NCBI GenBank assembly: GCA_031276875.1
Contig: JAISMG010000037.1
Location: 35,770-99,769, forward strand
Reading direction: 5' to 3'
From: Candidatus Peribacteria bacterium
GTDB taxonomy: Bacteria; Patescibacteriota; Gracilibacteria; Absconditabacterales; Absconditicoccaceae
DNA length: 64,000 nucleotides
Shown here: one piece after another, positions 4,576-64,000 of the stretch
How positions within the stretch are numbered: position 1 is the stretch's first letter
Layout: every line of letters begins with the position of its first letter
Program-made: the position numbers and the translations under genes
The notes under the pieces: model-generated
Told to the model about the DNA's origin: nothing
Seen by the model: the letters and a program-made list of their open reading frames with translations, nothing else
The model's database searches: none

Positions 4576-5160
4576 TTAGGAAACAAGAGATAAATCCATA
4601 TCGTTTCGAGAAACAACTTTGATAATACCGGGATAATGTTCCGCAGTATAGTCTTGGTTTCGTGGTTGGTCAAGAAGGAAACAGGGAATATGATGACGAG
4701 CAATATCACTCGCAAATTCCAAATTATCTTCCACCATTACTTGAATACCCTTTTGCATACAAAGCTGAGATTTGGGAATTTCGTGGTCAGTCAGATGATT
4801 GGAAAAGAGAATATCATCAAAAAGATTGGGAAAATGCTGATGAAGCCATTGCTTGGTTCTTTCTTTGAATACGGATACTCTTCCCGTTATCACTACTAAC
4901 GTATGTCCTTGTGATTTCCACGTTTGTAAGGTTTCTTTTGCTCCGGGAAGAGGTGGAATATTCCGAAAATCATCAGAAGCAAACAGTTCATAAAATATTT
5001 GAAATGCAGCTTCTTTTGTTAATCCTAGTTTGGAAATTTGCCACAAATCATATGCTGTAATATCTTTCCTTTGGATATTTTTGGCAGTGAAGAAAGGCAA
5101 TTGAAGGAGTTGTTTCATCGTATCACTAAGCACTTCATCACAATCTATTCCAATGAGCAT
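4576..5160 (-). CDS. HAD-superfamily / 5'-nucleotidase-like phosphatase
   Basis: MLIGIDCDEVLSDT...VVITGR...MVEDNLEFASDI; HAD motif I DxDxV and late acidic motif. Confidence 0.75.
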   Translation of the reverse strand: MLIGIDCDEVLSDTMKQLLQLPFFTAKNIQRKDITAYDLWQISKLGLTKEAAFQIFYELFASDDFRNIPPLPGAKETLQTWKSQGHTLVVITGRVSVFKERTKQWLHQHFPNLFDDILFSNHLTDHEIPKSQLCMQKGIQVMVEDNLEFASDIARHHIPCFLLDQPRNQDYTAEHYPGIIKVVSRNDMDLSLVS

Positions 5161-5406
5161 TGATAAAAAATTTTATAAGTAAACAGAAAGGGAGTATAAG
5201 ACTTTTTGATAGATTTACAAGGAGAAAAAGATTAGAGAAAATTATACTTCAAAATGCAATTGCTGATAAGTTGTTTTTTTGTTATTTACAAGGATACTTT
5301 GAAGTTTTTATAGAAACGTTACATATTATTTTATAAATGTGTTGACTTTCATAGGTAAATGTGTATTATGTTATTTCAGAAAAATGTTTTATTTATGATA
5401 ATGTAG

Positions 5407-7155
5407 ATGATGAGTCTGAATAGTTTGGCATATAATCTTATGGATGATATAGAATCAAATGATAATGGTGAAACTGAATTTTCTTTAGAAGATATTTTTG
5501 TGAATCCTGATGATAAAGAACGTTTAGAGAAGTTGTTAAAATCCAAACAAATTTTTTTAGCATATCAGCTTTTTTATAAAATATATACATCTTTTGAGAA
5601 AAATTTTATTAAACAAAATTTAACTAAAGGAGAAAAATTAGCTCCTAAAACAGATGAAGAATTACATACTATTTTTTCAGAAAATTTTTCGGATTTTCTT
5701 TTTGGACATGAGGGGATATTTTCACGATTGGAACAGACTATTGAGATGTATTTCCCAGAAATTGATCCGTTTGAAAAAGCATATCTTCAAGAAAAATTTA
5801 AGATGATTTATATTCCAACATCTGTAGAAGCATTTAATGAAAGTGTTTTGATAGTTAATGCTCCTAGTATTAATGAGTTAGCTACTTATTTGAAAAATAA
5901 TCGACATTTATGGGGAATTCCTTCTATTATTTCCCATTTTATACAGCAATATGATGGAATAGCGAAAACAGCATTAGAAACATCTGTAGAGTCACATTTT
6001 AAACATCAGAAAGAGTCTTTGGAGAAAGAACATTCTACTACGAATATTAAAGTATATTTTAATAAAAATCATTATTGTACCAAAGAAAAGGTGAGACAAT
6101 ATTGTAGGGAATGTATTACGTATTCTTTTATTTATAGTGCTTGAGAGAAAATTTATAAAATAATACATAACCAGGGTACTCAAACTTTTTCTCGTAATGA
6201 TGTTTTACTTTTTTATTTTCATTACCTTTATGAATTTGAACATTCAGATATAGAGATTCAAAAAGAGATTATATACTGATATATATATCAATATATTAAT
6301 GATGTATTGTCTAATGCATTGGAAAACACAACAAAAAAATTGAATAAAAAAGCTGAATGAGTACCACCGTCAGTATTATGAAAAAAAGAACATCCTTTAC
6401 CGGAAAATCAATGATTATCAGATGAAAGTTGATTATTGAAAACTTCTGATAGAAAATATCCAGACATACTTTTTACTATTGCAAATGGAGATGAGAAGTT
6501 TTTAAAGGAATTGAAGTATGATTATAAGAAAAAAAATGGAATATCTTATTTTACTTTACATAATAACTTTTCCACTAATGAAAAAATAGAAGAAATCATC
6601 AAACAATTATGGGAAGCTAGAATTCCTGTAATTCAAAGTCAAGAAGCAATTAAAAAGAATACTTCTGATGCATTAGTTCCTACTATAAAATGACCAATTG
6701 AACCACAAAAATTATCCTCTGAGCAATCCAATAAAGATGTGAGTCAATTTGATCAGTTTAAAAGAGCTCTCGATAATAAGCATAAAAATGCTGAAGAATT
6801 GGCTTCTATGCTTTATGAATTATGTACATTAACTGGAATAGATGTTCAAGATGATAGTACTAAACAGAAAGTTATTAGTAATTTTAAAGAATATGTGATA
6901 TATTATTCTCATATTGTGAACATATTTGTGTCTAAATTGGATGCTTATTATAAACAATGATGTCCTTCGATATGCAAAGGAATAATAATAAAATTAAAAA
7001 AAGGTGCAAATTATAGTAAGATAGAATTAGGAAGATCCCATAGAATACTTTTAAAAGACTGAGAACAAGGAAGATACTTTGAAGGAGGTGGTATTCTCTC
7101 TCATTCTGAATATGAAAAATGCTTAATTGGATTGGGATTTACTATTAAAACCTAA
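5407..7155 (+). CDS. Hypothetical protein, 582 aa in code 25, many in-frame UGA
   Basis: ORFs 5407-6144, 6436-6693 and 6739-6960 share one frame; gaps read by hand contain only TGA, terminating at TAA 7153-7155. Confidence 0.7.
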
Positions 7156-7157
7156 CT

Positions 7158-8213
7158 CTAAATAATCGTATCAGCTTCTCGGTTAATTTTGAAGCCTTTC
7201 GCATTCAAATGTAATTTGGTATACACAACATCCATAAAGTTTCTGACTTCTTTTCCTTTTAAAATAATGTTATATCTGTATTTCCCAAACATTTTATAAA
7301 TCAGTGGTGGCGTGGAATAAATTTCCAATTCCTTCATTTGATATTTCTGAGCGAGATAGAGCAATTCTTTGTACAAGGTATCAACTTTAGCAAACACTTT
7401 CCCTTCAATCTCATTTTTGTACAAAATGACGCAAAGGTCACTATAAGGTGGATAATTATACGTTTTCCTAAAAGCATATTCTGTGTCATAAAATCCTTGT
7501 TTATCGAGTTTACAAGCATTTCTGATAGAATATTGATGAGGATTAAAAGACTGAACAATAAAATTTGGCGTAGTGTGTTTCTGAAACGTTTCGTACAGTA
7601 GCTGGAAGTTGCGTTCATTAGCATTATAATCTGGGATATTCAATCCAATATCAGCATTGAGAAAAATAATCAGGTCAAGCGGATAATTGATAAGAGGCTG
7701 AGAAAGCAAACTGGTTCAGATAAGCAGAGGTTTGGAAGATTGAGAAGCGGGAGGAAGTGAAGCGAGAAATTTCTGGATTTTGTTTGGAGAATTGACCGTT
7801 TCACTTTCAATAATGAGAGAAGAAGCTCAAAAAGCTGATTGCAACTTTTCTGCTACTTGTTGTGTTCCAATTCCAAAAGGAGCAATACGAGAACTTCAAC
7901 ATTTTTCGCAGGTGCGAGGCAATGTGTATTGAGTTTTACAAATATGACAAAGTCCTATCATTTCACCATTGAGCTGTTTATGGTAAGAAATAGCAACGGA
8001 GCATTTTTTACATTGAGGGACGTGCCCACAATCATAGCAAATCATCCCTGGGGAGTAGCCTTTTTTATTCACGATAATTCAGATTTTTTTTCCTTGTTTG
8101 AGGTAGGTAGTGATGGCTTGATTGGTCAATTCGGAAAAGTAATGGTCCAATTCTTTGGTCATATTTACTAGAAAGATGTTTTTATGGGGGTGGGAAAATT
8201 GTTCGTAGTTCAT
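7158..8213 (-). CDS. priA: PriA-like primosomal protein N', C-terminal portion only (351 aa)
   Basis: GKKI(G)IIVNKKGYSPGMICYDCGHVPQCKKCSVAISYH...GLCHICKTQYTLPRTCEKC(G)SSRIAPFGIGTQQVAEKL...LLI(G)TSLLSQPLINYP...PDYNANERNFQLL...YPPYSDLCVIL; zinc-binding and C-terminal PriA motifs; in-frame TAG just upstream of the ATG. Confidence 0.88.
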
Positions 8214-8372
8214 AGGATATTTCTATATGTAATTTTTCGTTACTCATCTTCAAGAGAAATTTCACTGCAAAATATTCACCTTGTTTTTCATCCAGAAACC
8301 TGTATCATATGGTAATCAATGTGATTTGACCTTTTCTTGTTAGAATTATTTTTTATTCTTTAATTACTTGAT

Positions 8373-9005
8373 ATGATAGGAGATTATTCATCCAAAAGTC
8401 GCCGTGAAATATGGGAACAACAACACCGTCCTGATACATATAGACCACGATTGTATCTTGATAATACAGAAATACTTGATAAATTTATTAATATATTGCC
8501 TCCTGAAAGTACAGTGTTAGATTATGGTTGCAGTGAGTGAAAAATTGCTGAATATCTATTTCAACATAGATTAAAGCTTACTTGTGCTGATATAGCAGAA
8601 AATGCATTAGAACTTACAAAACAGAGGATAAACTCTCCTCTACTAACAACACTTCAAGCTAATAGTCCTAATGATATATTAGACAGACAATTTGATGGAA
8701 TTTTTTGCTGATGAGTATTACATCACATTTCGCCAGAAGAACGACCAAATTATATCCACACTTTTTATAGTATGCTCAAGCCTCACGGTGTATTACTTCT
8801 TACTTGACACAGCACTAAAACAGAAGATTTTGCAAATTGAACTCGCATTTCTCCAGCTACTTGATTTATTTCTCACGCTATTGATGAAATAGAACCATTG
8901 TTAACGCAAGAAGGATTTAGCATTAAAGAGAACTGATATATTGAAGGTAAAGAACCTAAAAGTCCTATGCAAAGATATTTAAAATATTTTCTTGCGACAA
9001 AATAA
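8373..9005 (+). CDS. Class I SAM-dependent methyltransferase
   Basis: Code-25 translation MIGDYSSKSRREIWEQQHRPDTYRPRLYLDNTEILDKFINILPPESTVLDYGCSE(G)KIAEYLFQHRLKLTCADIAENALELTKQRI...FDGIFC(GG)VLHHISPEERPNYIHTFYSMLKPHGVLLLT; motif I and post-I present; hidden by UGA in the ORF track. Confidence 0.85.
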
Positions 9006-9079
9006 TTGGTAAACAATCTATTATAGTGTCACATTTTGAAATAAACTACATTTTACAATATCAGAACAAGCAACATTTT

Positions 9080-9544
9080 CTATGCTACCTGTCTATTTTG
9101 CCTGATAAATAACGGCAAATGAATAGCTCACAGTACCAAAAAGAGGATAACCCACGTACAAAATGAAATCAGGTTATCGCGATAACGATACTCCCTTTGG
9201 TCAGCTACAGTATCTATCGCTTTTTTCTCACAAACCTGAATTTCAGCCTCCGTTTTGGGAGCGTCTACGTCCTCTTTATAGGTATATCCTTCTTGTGAAC
9301 ATTGAAGATACTGCCATTGCTGTTGGGCATAGGTTTGTGTATCCATCAACTGATACTGCAAAAGTTCATTTACCAACAATCCCGCAGAAATCGTAAATCC
9401 CAGCGTTGCCACCAACGAAATCACCAGCAAATACAAATTGAAAAAGTTTTTATGAGGCATAGCAAAGAGTAAAAAGATAAAAAATCCACCTAAAATAAGC
9501 ACCGTACCACCAATAATCACTGTAATTGACATTTTGTACATCAA
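9080..9544 (-). CDS. Small membrane protein, hypothetical
   Basis: ORF 9128-9544 extended through one TGA to TAG at 9080-9082; several hydrophobic segments. Confidence 0.6.
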
Positions 9545-9571
9545 AAGAAATAAAAATCTATATCCAAAAAT

Positions 9572-9811
9572 TTATTCAGCTTTTTTATTGAGTTTGAGAA
9601 AGTACGGAAAATGTGTCAAAAACAAAATAAGAAAGAGTACTAACCACGTCAATTGTGCAATCAAATCACTTGTGGAAAAGTACGCATAATCCAACAGCAA
9701 ACATTCCAGCAAATGATGTACACAAAACCCAAACGCAATTGTCATTCCCAGCAGAGCCACCAGAGAAACAATAAGTAAATACAGCTTAAGTGGTGCATTT
9801 TCAGTTTTCAT
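9572..9811 (-). CDS. Small membrane protein, hypothetical
   Basis: MKTENAPLKLYLLIVSLVALLGMTIAFGFCVHHLLECLLL...LTWLVLFLILFLTHFPYFLKLNKKAE; start set at 9809-9811 because the longer track ORF crosses the tRNA; similar hydrophobic plan to the neighbouring 9080-9544 gene. Confidence 0.6.
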   Translation of the reverse strand: MKTENAPLKLYLLIVSLVALLGMTIAFGFCVHHLLECLLLDYAYFSTSDLIAQLTWLVLFLILFLTHFPYFLKLNKKAE

Positions 9812-9837
9812 AGAGAAAGCAATAAGAGATAAACATT

Positions 9838-9909
9838 TGACTCGTCCCGGAGTCGAACCGGGATTACAGTCTTCGCAGGACTGTGTCCTATCCATTAAAC
9901 GAACGAATC
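9838..9909 (-). tRNA. tRNA-Arg(GCG)
   Basis: Cloverleaf: acceptor GATTCGT/ACGAGTC, D stem GTTT/GGAC, anticodon arm CAGTC-CTGCGAA-GACTG, T arm CCCGG-TTCGACT-CCGGG, discriminator A; CCA not encoded. Confidence 0.92.
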
Positions 9910-10060
9910 TTTGCTGAAAATATCCTATACAACATAATGTATCATAGTAAAAAGTGACCCAAAAAGCAAGTAAAAAATAAAAAAACTCCTCAAAAATTTG
10001 CATATTTTTTTTTTCTGAGTATACTTAGAGTATCAACTTTTTAGCTCTTATAACACAAAG

Positions 10061-11023
10061 ATGAAAAAATTAGTTCTTTCCTTGAGTCTTTTCCTTGCTG
10101 GAACGGTAGGGATTTCCTCCGCAGTAAATATGGCAGGAATTGCAGAACTTCGAACAAATGCCTCTTTTGGGTACACTACACAAGATGTGATTACGGTACC
10201 TCTCATTACTCCTTCTTCCATCGGAATTGCGTCGCCCATACTCAAAGACATTGGCGGAGATGATATGACAATTTACAAATTGACTTACGGTCCTTATTTA
10301 ATGGAAGATTTGGTAAATGCATCAGAAACTCTTTTAAAAGAAATCCAAGTTAAAACAGGAGTTGTCCAAGATGGACAAGTACATTTTTCTCTTGGACTTT
10401 CTGATGGACTCACAGGAGACAAAACTTATTACGCAATGATTACTCCTTTAGGTATTTATGATGAACCCGGGACTTCTTCAGCACAGATTTGTTTTAATCT
10501 TGCTCAAGAACGCTATGAAATAGGAAATGCCTGTCAAAACTTTGATAAACCACAAGAAGTAGAACATCCAGTTGCCACAACTTCCACAGAACCACTAACC
10601 GAAACAGCTCATACCGCAGCAAGTGCTCCTGTAAATATGTCGCTTGCCAATATTACGCATACTATAGACGGAAACACGATTAGCTTGAAATGGACAGCGT
10701 TAGAAGGAGGGGGAACAATTGATATTTTTGTCTTTGATTTCCGTCAAGAGAAATATATTCTTGCGGGGACTGTAAGAATGACCGATGAAAAATTTGACTA
10801 CAAAATGACGTGGGACAATGAACATCTCTTTAGATTTGTACCACAAGCAGGAACAGAATTTACTTATACAGTAAACGCAGTCAGAGGGCCAGAACCGACT
10901 CCTCCAGCCCCTGTTATCGTGAAACCTCCCGTTACAGGACCTGTAGAAAATATGCTTGCAGTGTTGCTACTTTCTTTGCTGGTATACGGTGGATATAGAT
11001 ATTATACTAGGAAGTCTCGATAA
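10061..11023 (+). CDS. Secreted protein with signal peptide and C-terminal TM anchor
   Basis: MKKLVLSLSLFLAGTVGISSAV signal-like start; C-terminus PPVTGPVENMLAVLLLSLLVYGGYRYYTRKSR. Confidence 0.75.
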   Translation: MKKLVLSLSLFLAGTVGISSAVNMAGIAELRTNASFGYTTQDVITVPLITPSSIGIASPILKDIGGDDMTIYKLTYGPYLMEDLVNASETLLKEIQVKTGVVQDGQVHFSLGLSDGLTGDKTYYAMITPLGIYDEPGTSSAQICFNLAQERYEIGNACQNFDKPQEVEHPVATTSTEPLTETAHTAASAPVNMSLANITHTIDGNTISLKWTALEGGGTIDIFVFDFRQEKYILAGTVRMTDEKFDYKMTWDNEHLFRFVPQAGTEFTYTVNAVRGPEPTPPAPVIVKPPVTGPVENMLAVLLLSLLVYGGYRYYTRKSR

Positions 11024-11157
11024 GAAGTATTTACAATATTTGATGAGTTCTTTGCTACATTTTGAATTATAATTTTCCTTTCTGAAAAAAGTATTGCATA
11101 AAAAAATGAATTATATAGTATAGAATAAAATATTTTATTTATTTAAAAGAAGAAATA

Positions 11158-11799
11158 ATGGTAGATGTATTTGATTATAAGAAAAAATATAAGGACTTAT
11201 ATTTCCCAAAAAATCAACCTATGCTGATTGAAGTTCCTGAAATAACCTTTGTCGCGGTTGAGGGAAAAGGAAATCCAAATGATGAAAATGGAGAATATCG
11301 TAAAGCTCTTGAATTATTGTATGGAATACAATATACCATAAAAATGAGCAAAAAAGGAAACAATATTCCCAACGGTTATTTTGATTATGTTGTACCACCG
11401 CTTGAAGGGTTGTGGTGGTTTGAAGACAATGTAAAAACCCGAACAAAAGATAAATCAAAATATAACTGGCTTTCAATAATCAGATTGCCGGAATATGTTA
11501 CAAAGGACGTATTTCTATGGGCCTGTGATGAAGTAAAAAATAAAAAGAACATTGAAACGGGAAAAGCAAAATATATGAAAATAAAAGAAGGATTGTGTGT
11601 GCAGTGTATGCATATCGGATCATTTGATGAAGAAGCAAAGACATTAAAATTAATAGAAAAATATATCAAAGAAAATGACTTGATAAATGATTTGGCAAAC
11701 GAAAAAAGGAAACATCACGAAATATATTTATCAGACCCAAGGAAAACAGAAAAAACAAAAATGAAAACGGTATTAAGAATACCCGTAAAAAGAAAATAG
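11158..11799 (+). CDS. GyrI-like small-molecule-binding domain protein
   Basis: MVDVFDYKKKYKDLYFPKNQPMLIEVPEITFVAVEGKGNPNDENGEYRKALELLYGIQYTIKM...YDYVVPPLEGLWWF...; typical stand-alone GyrI-like family pattern. Confidence 0.8.
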   Translation: MVDVFDYKKKYKDLYFPKNQPMLIEVPEITFVAVEGKGNPNDENGEYRKALELLYGIQYTIKMSKKGNNIPNGYFDYVVPPLEGLWWFEDNVKTRTKDKSKYNWLSIIRLPEYVTKDVFLWACDEVKNKKNIETGKAKYMKIKEGLCVQCMHIGSFDEEAKTLKLIEKYIKENDLINDLANEKRKHHEIYLSDPRKTEKTKMKTVLRIPVKRK

Positions 11800-12011
11800 T
11801 TATTCCCATATCATTACTCTGACACCTTTTGTCTATCGTTATTGTTTAGTCACAGATATTATTCACGAAAATGTTTCTTCATTTAGTTTAAGATAAAAGG
11901 AAATCTTCAGATAACATTTTATATCAAACTATAACGTTCATTATTTGCTTTTTACATTATTTGATTATCTCTGGGGCATTTTGCTTGAAGATTAACCAAT
12001 ATAAGATTTTT

Positions 12012-12896
12012 CTAAAAACAATATTTAGGTGGAAGTAGGGTATCTTCCATAAACAGCCAATTATCCCAAAAAAGAGATCAAGATAATCCTAGATATTCTA
12101 AATCTATTTCTTTATATGCAGTGTCATAACATCATTGAAAGACTCGACCTTCCTCCATTCTTTCTCATTTAAATGTCTCCAAAGTATATATTGCACCATA
12201 CCACTCAATTGCACCAAGATATTCTCCTTCTGGGATAATACGCATTGCTAAAAATAATTTTCCATTCTTTATCCACAAACTTACTGGTCAGTCTCCTACT
12301 GGAGGAAGAAGGAGATGATGTCGTTGTTGTTCTCCTATTTTCCTGATGAGTGCACCCGTGAAAATATTAACACTTCCTTGTTCTACGATTTGAAATGGTT
12401 TTTCCTTATCATTATTAATGCAAGGAATTCACGCTCAAAAATATCGCCCACATAATGCAAGCTGAAATGCTCCAAAACGATATATTTTTCTTCTCTTCAT
12501 CGCTACCACATCATCTCCAAAGTGATAGGTTGTATTAGTATTGCTGGTATCTAATATCTCTATTTTTTCTTCAGTAGAAAGTTCATAAAATTGAGTTTCT
12601 TTAATGTTAGAGAACAAATCTTTCTGATGTAAGGTATCCGTAATATACGATGTTATTATTTCTTTCTGTAGATATTCCCTTTTTATGTCCTCTATATTTT
12701 TTATAAATTCCGTCTCATAATCAAATATTCTTTGTCTCCCATCGGTAATCATAAATGGAGTAAATAAATATGCTTCTTGGTTTGTTTGAAGTATTTCAGT
12801 TTGGCAACTATTATTTGAATATAGGTTTTTTATCATCATAAAAACTATTATTACAAGCAGAAACAGTGAAAAAATAAGGTAATTTTTCTTTTTCAT
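12012..12896 (-). CDS. Hypothetical secreted/membrane-anchored protein
   Basis: ORF 12435-12896 extended by UGA=Gly (...GRYF(G)A(G)IPCINNDKEKPF...LPPVGD(G)PVSLWIKNGKLFLAM...) to TAG; N-terminal TM. Confidence 0.65.
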
Positions 12897-63326: not shown

Positions 63327-63425
63327 AAAAAAGGCTCCTTATCTCAAGGGAATTATTACAAAAAAACTCCTCTCATCTTGTATCACCCATTTTGTAGGAC
63401 AGCAAATCAGGGCTGGAGCCTCTTT
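63327..63425. other. Intergenic long-range hairpin (AAAAAAGGCTCC / GGAGCCTCTTT)
   Basis: Visible complementary arms; could be a terminator or structured RNA. Confidence 0.35.
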
Positions 63426-63458
63426 AAACATTTCACGATAGGACCTCAACACCACATC

Positions 63459-63530
63459 GTCATTCTAAGGAGCAAATGCAGTGAGCGAGGAAGAATCCAA
63501 AATAAACGTTTCTGATACTGGATTCTTCCC
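63459..63530. repeat. Palindromic intergenic element related to the 39.2 kb element (GTCATTCT...GGAAGAATCCA...TGGATTCTTCC)
   Basis: Shares GTCATTCT and GGATTCTTC with 39207-39266; inverted repeat GGAAGAATCCA/TGGATTCTTCC. Confidence 0.5.
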
Positions 63531-63623
63531 CCGTCCCGCAAGTACTGCGGAAGCATAGAAGGGCAAAGCCCTGAGACAACTGAGCGAAGGGCACCGCCCT
63601 TCGGCTCTAATATGCCCATACAG

Positions 63624-64000
63624 TTAAGAATTCTGGAAACAACGCAGAGAGAAGCCGTACGCACGATAGTTACTGCCGTACGTGTTCAGGTTGGACGAAA
63701 GCAAGTTCAGGCTATAAGCACTGGTGCCATCTGGACTGGATGACCAGTAGCGGCCGTAACTGCCCTGACTGCTGACCGACGCGGCGGACGAATTGAGGCG
63801 GCGCCCTGCAAGCGGTAAACGGAAGTCATTCCTAAATTGAGTAACGTTAGCCTCAGCAGAGAAGCCTTTATAACCACCATTATCATTGAGAGAAACCCCC
63901 TTGATACTCGCTCGTGTGATGAGTAATTGATTCCACTCTCCCATACTTGGTACATGATAACCATCTGGACACGGTCATTGTCTATCTAATGCGTCTTGTC
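63624..64000 (-). CDS. FISUMP-domain (Fib_succ_major, C-type-lectin-like) protein, C-terminal part; 5' end beyond the window
   Basis: DALDRQ(G)PCPDGYHVPSMGEWNQLL...NDFRLPLAGRRLNSSAASVSSQGSYGRYWSSSPDGTSAYSLNLLSSNLNTYGSNYRAYGFSLRCFQNS; CPxGYHVPS..EW, FRLPLAG, YWSSS, RAxGFSxRC signature. Confidence 0.9.

Follow-up and report, generated by a model that had tools for sequence, protein, structure and literature searches.

The archetype of the diversity-generating retroelements (DGRs) is that of the Bordetella phage BPP-1. DGRs of CPR bacteria are already on record (PMC8144416), as are DGR targets with FISUMP domains (PMC4159848) and genomes with many targets (PMC10907252). Here, we describe a further DGR with a target set that is large for a 1.2-Mb genome; the number of scattered targets is its most interesting aspect. 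The locus at which the analysis began lies at one end of a 64,000-nucleotide stretch of DNA (referred to here as the window), which comprises bases 35770-99769 of contig C21 in a Candidatus Peribacteria assembly of 1.23 Mb (38 contigs, 67.8% complete). A first-pass annotation of the window had proposed that the end of a FISUMP (Fib_succ_major) gene is a DGR variable region (VR). Taken as a whole, this proposal is supported by a DGR cassette on contig C13 of the same genome, by a family of related VRs, and by variation linked to template adenines. We consider it very probable, on the strength of these sequence comparisons, that the window gene end is the VR of a gene targeted by a DGR in a bacterium using genetic code 25.

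The system resembles the BPP-1 DGR in having a related reverse transcriptase (RT; E = 1.8e-29) with an IG.LTSQ motif in common, an Avd-family protein, and a C-terminally placed target VR whose variation is adenine linked. Unlike BPP-1, which is a phage with Mtd as the target, the setting here is cellular and code 25 is used; the targets are FISUMP proteins, many and scattered, and a MutS-I-like protein (MSL) is present. Fib_succ_major DGR targets are known as well from the human microbiome, where exported proteins carry the FISUMP domain at the C terminus (PMC4159848, Table 2). Those targets are on human-microbiome contigs and include an Mfa2-linked lipoprotein, whereas a code-25 bacterium is not described there. 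Many targets in one genome, some apparently diversified in trans, are found in Thiohalocapsa PB-PSB1, but that organism has nine loci and 15 targets associated with NACHT/STAND conflict systems (PMC10907252). In the present genome, one cassette was found, the targets carry FISUMP domains, and no NACHT/STAND domains were seen. The analysis links a gene end that has no RT close by to a retroelement elsewhere in its own genome, and a small code-25 genome devotes about eleven gene ends to DGR-type variation.

The FISUMP gene end in the window

Contig C21 terminates at window position 64000, and the 5' part of the FISUMP gene falls beyond it. The 3' part (63624-64000, minus strand) is read in a frame running from 63998 to 63624, which encodes the C-terminal 124 amino acids of a Fib_succ_major protein (PF09603; E = 4.6e-11) and stays open as far as the stop codon at 63624-63626. 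Support for code 25 (TGA = Gly) comes from the adjoining genes, which carry in-frame TGA codons and are full length under this code, and from in-frame TGA within the C13 RT. These neighbors look like pflB, ligA, and folD. They appear to be ordinary cellular genes, and the context of the window is therefore not that of a phage. No relatives of the window fragment were found in IMG/VR.

The gene end had been described as GC rich in AT-rich DNA and dominated by C-ending codons, and both descriptions were borne out. The GC content is 0.542 at 63624-63835 compared with 0.368 for the whole window, a level reached by just 0.13% of 212-base windows, and C-ending codons increase from 15.5% in the 58 codons upstream to 42% in the last 66 codons. 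The rise in GC is not confined to the VR: values of ~50% also were obtained for positions 63400-63600, directly downstream of it. The VR occupies the last ~62 codons of the gene (63627-63812, minus strand). Its variable codons fall within about 63659-63812 and are followed by a near-constant tail (63627-63658) and the stop codon, which agrees well both with the limits first given for the variable region and with its placement at the extreme C terminus of the FISUMP gene. A codon table of seven paralogues was aligned with the template repeats (TRs) of two independent cassettes. The residues varying most fall mainly on AAC or AAT codons of the TRs, and the hypervariable codons at 63659-63812 (minus strand) align in the same way; in these variable AAY codons, the third base is mostly fixed as C or T. 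With regard to the C-type-lectin-like fold predicted for the VR domain, a sequence search of the PDB revealed no relative, and AlphaFold models of a related FISUMP domain (L050; see below) and of L093 had mean pLDDT values of 34 and 39, too low for a fold search.

A DGR cassette and eleven related gene ends in one genome

We looked for an RT and a template repeat in the genome, on which the proposal depended, and both were present on contig C13 (L014), together with Avd and MSL. The gene order of this cassette is MSL, TR, Avd, RT, an LRR gene, and the 5' end of a FISUMP-like target gene. MSL (5091-5516) is a small MutS-domain-I protein (MutS_I, PF01624; E = 8.6e-11) of a kind recorded as a DGR accessory (PMC10053308). 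It is followed by an AAC-rich TR (about 5664-5860), Avd (5910-6311; bAvd, PF22296, E = 5e-13; phrog_3206), the RT (6322-7536), and the LRR protein (7679-12013); the target that comes after the LRR gene is truncated by the contig end. The RT matches phrog_1423 (E = 4e-92) and contains the motif IGNLTSQ. Its closest solved structure is PDB 8ub7 (E = 1.8e-29), which we take to be the RT of the BPP-1 DGR, with group II RTs far behind; an IG(N/S)LTSQ motif is common to the two proteins.

The RVT_1 search of the genome that returned the C13 RT returned one other RT, on contig C22 (L013 5933-8707), where it follows a 415-amino-acid ORF of unknown family. The C22 protein was rejected as a DGR RT. It is nearest to the retron St85 RT (profile NF038233; E = 9e-36, a match under the cut-off of the profile), and neither Avd nor a TR was noted alongside.

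Three queries (the window VR, the C13 TR, and an inferred template) together identified eleven related FISUMP gene ends in the genome, on eleven contigs. The window gene end is one of these, and the proposal that it belongs to a DGR target is strengthened by the ten further VR-like gene ends. Eight form family A (C21 [the window], C9, C29, C20, C15, C31, C28, and C2), within which shared fixed differences define the subgroups A1 and A2. Two, on C19 and C10, make up the C13 family and match the C13 TR at 90% and 84%, respectively, and C37 carries one distant VR. The C15 gene end is frameshifted and the tail of C20 is slightly altered; the other FISUMP ends are open. For genes that are complete at the 5' end, the N terminus resembles a signal peptide or membrane anchor, as judged by eye, and for this reason the targets probably are exported binding proteins with a varied contact face.

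Contig C13 ends with exactly the 119 nt with which C10 begins, and it is therefore likely that C10, with its VR of the C13 family, holds the continuation of the cassette's own target. C20 and the window contig also are identical over exactly 119 nt from their contig ends (window 63880-64000), after which the two sequences part abruptly, within the VR and immediately ahead of it. Such shared ends, each of 119 nt, have the appearance of branch points in the assembly graph where target genes are repeated. The C13 TR was rejected as the template of the window VR, to which it is only ~65% identical and from which its 3' tail differs. No family A template was detected in the assembly, which is 67.8% complete.

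Adenine-linked variation and its possible origins

The missing family A template meant that variation had to be placed on independent templates, namely, the C13 TR and that of G016, a member of another genus of the host's family. Subgroup A1 comprises the window, C9, C29, C20, and C15, a grouping made after the alignment had been viewed. On the G016 TR, A1 columns with three or more bases made up 17 of the 44 adenine columns and none of the 122 others; on the C13 TR, the counts were 16/40 and 1/126. For all eight family A copies on the G016 TR, such columns occupied 23/44 adenines and 8/122 other positions. This concentration in A1 is in line with the earlier claim of adenine-directed change at AAC codons. 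As a substitute for its own template, which the incomplete assembly lacks, a template was derived for the window VR by leave-one-out from its sister copies; against this, the window VR had mismatches at 24 of 47 adenines and 21 of 124 other sites (P = 2.5e-5), a comparison that is partly circular; about 17% of the non-adenine sites differ from the sisters. Direct comparison of the window VR with the G016 TR was not significant (P = 0.21) because there are many non-adenine differences between them. Within the C13 family, the TR had mismatches at 11/43 adenine and 9/149 non-adenine sites with the C19 VR and at 14/43 and 16/149 with the C10 VR, several of the non-adenine mismatches being in the 3' tail.

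Five cassettes of relatives (G016, L050, L051, L053, and L055), the last four found as RT relatives among genome contigs, have TRs and VRs that disagree predominantly or exclusively at adenines of the template. G016 has a TR-Avd-RT cassette, in which the TR and its own VR are mismatched at 21/53 adenines compared with 5/152 other bases (P = 3.5e-10). The corresponding counts were 32/70 versus 1/125 for L051, 19/56 versus 1/90 for L053, and 25/56 versus 0/89 for L055, and adenines are the sole mismatch sites in the L050 VR core. L050 shares with the C13 cassette a FISUMP target, MSL, TR, Avd, an RT that is 64% identical and has in-frame TGA, and an LRR gene, and its template is closer to the C13 kind than to family A. 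It differs in its gene order (target-MSL-TR-Avd-RT-LRR), with the target upstream of the TR, and in the single VR seen on its short contig. That contig (JAIRSX010000044.1) is labelled Rickettsiales; its RT has five in-frame TGA codons and no TAA or TAG, and the sequence suggests a mis-binned contig of a code-25 organism. The gene after the DGR RT encodes a large LRR protein in both cassettes (L014 7679-12013 and L050 4343-6580). On contig C4 of G016 (L057 5831-16001), a protein of >3,390 amino acids, cut by the fetched stretch, contains two VR-bearing FISUMP domains that face a DGR cassette. A DGR RT was present in 10 of the 50 genomes searched within the host's family, and among these 50 it was found in no other member of the host's genus.

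Surface proteins commonly diverge fast, and the FISUMP genes are a paralogous family in this genome, as would be anticipated if diversifying selection were driving duplicated surface genes apart and no retroelement were involved at the window gene. However, selection on the protein would not cause columns holding at least three bases to fall only on template adenines, as seen in A1 (17/44 versus 0/122), nor would it keep the third bases of variable AAY codons mostly C or T, and such an origin is highly improbable. Gene conversion or recombination among the paralogous ends would shuffle existing variants and yield a mosaic. The identical upstream stretch of C20 and C21 and the shared fixed differences of A1 and A2 are consistent with this, but conversion copies old variants, and alone it yields no columns of three or four bases mainly at template-adenine sites. 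As the sole cause it is very unlikely; it may well act in addition to a DGR.

It also is conceivable, if on balance unlikely, that the window VR is a fossil, i.e., the product of a past DGR whose template or machine has been lost, leaving the gene end to drift as ordinary sequence. The absence of a family A template from the assembly, the mismatches at ~17% of non-adenine sites, the frameshift in the sister C15, and the failure to find the RT in any other genome of the genus within the searched set all point this way. Set against them are the window frame, which is open to the stop codon, and the complete cassette in the same genome, while the absence of the template is weak evidence because the assembly is only 67.8% complete.

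Proposed mechanism and sequences downstream of the VR

For a window gene end that is the VR of a DGR target, a mechanism can be modelled on DGRs that have been studied (PMC3240598, PMC12875486). An error-prone RT, acting with Avd, would copy an AAC-rich template RNA and insert random bases wherever the template has an adenine. The mutated cDNA then would swap in for the 3' end of the FISUMP gene, starting at the fixed 3' tail, and the C-terminal codons would be reshuffled on an unchanged protein scaffold. Homing of this kind into the window VR and ligand binding by its protein are inferred. The window VR would be served by a family A template outside the assembly, with either the C13 RT or a second RT. 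We tentatively raise the possibility, to which we give somewhat less than even weight, that a single RT-Avd-MSL machine acts in trans, with two or more different templates, to diversify at least 10 exported proteins encoded at scattered loci, providing a changeable repertoire of surface binders. If one machine does serve all of these targets, the genome would be a compact system in which to study how an RT selects its template and its distant target and which ligands the variable FISUMP proteins bind.

The near-constant 3' tail of the VR and the stop codon (63624-63658, minus strand) are conserved among the family A copies and occupy the position expected of an initiation-of-mutagenic-homing (IMH) site. 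In the 3' tail of the C13 family, the TR differs from both VRs at identical positions, like an IMH*/IMH pair, and by analogy the window tail may have an IMH role. Directly downstream of the VR is an inverted repeat of 8 bp with a 3-nt loop (63585-63603). Target-site hairpins of phage DGRs have stems of 7 to 10 bp and 4-nt loops (PMC3240598), and the inverted repeat is a possible, if weak, candidate for such an element. It was set aside as proof of a DGR target site: a comparable hairpin with a different stem sequence is found behind C29, and most sister VRs have none. Farther downstream, at 63459-63529, the window contains a dispersed repeat (GTCATTCTGAGGAGCGAA...GAGGAAGAATCC), the end of which also is present as an inverted copy. 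The genome has four copies of this repeat, and two of these, on C9 and in the window, lie directly after VR genes.
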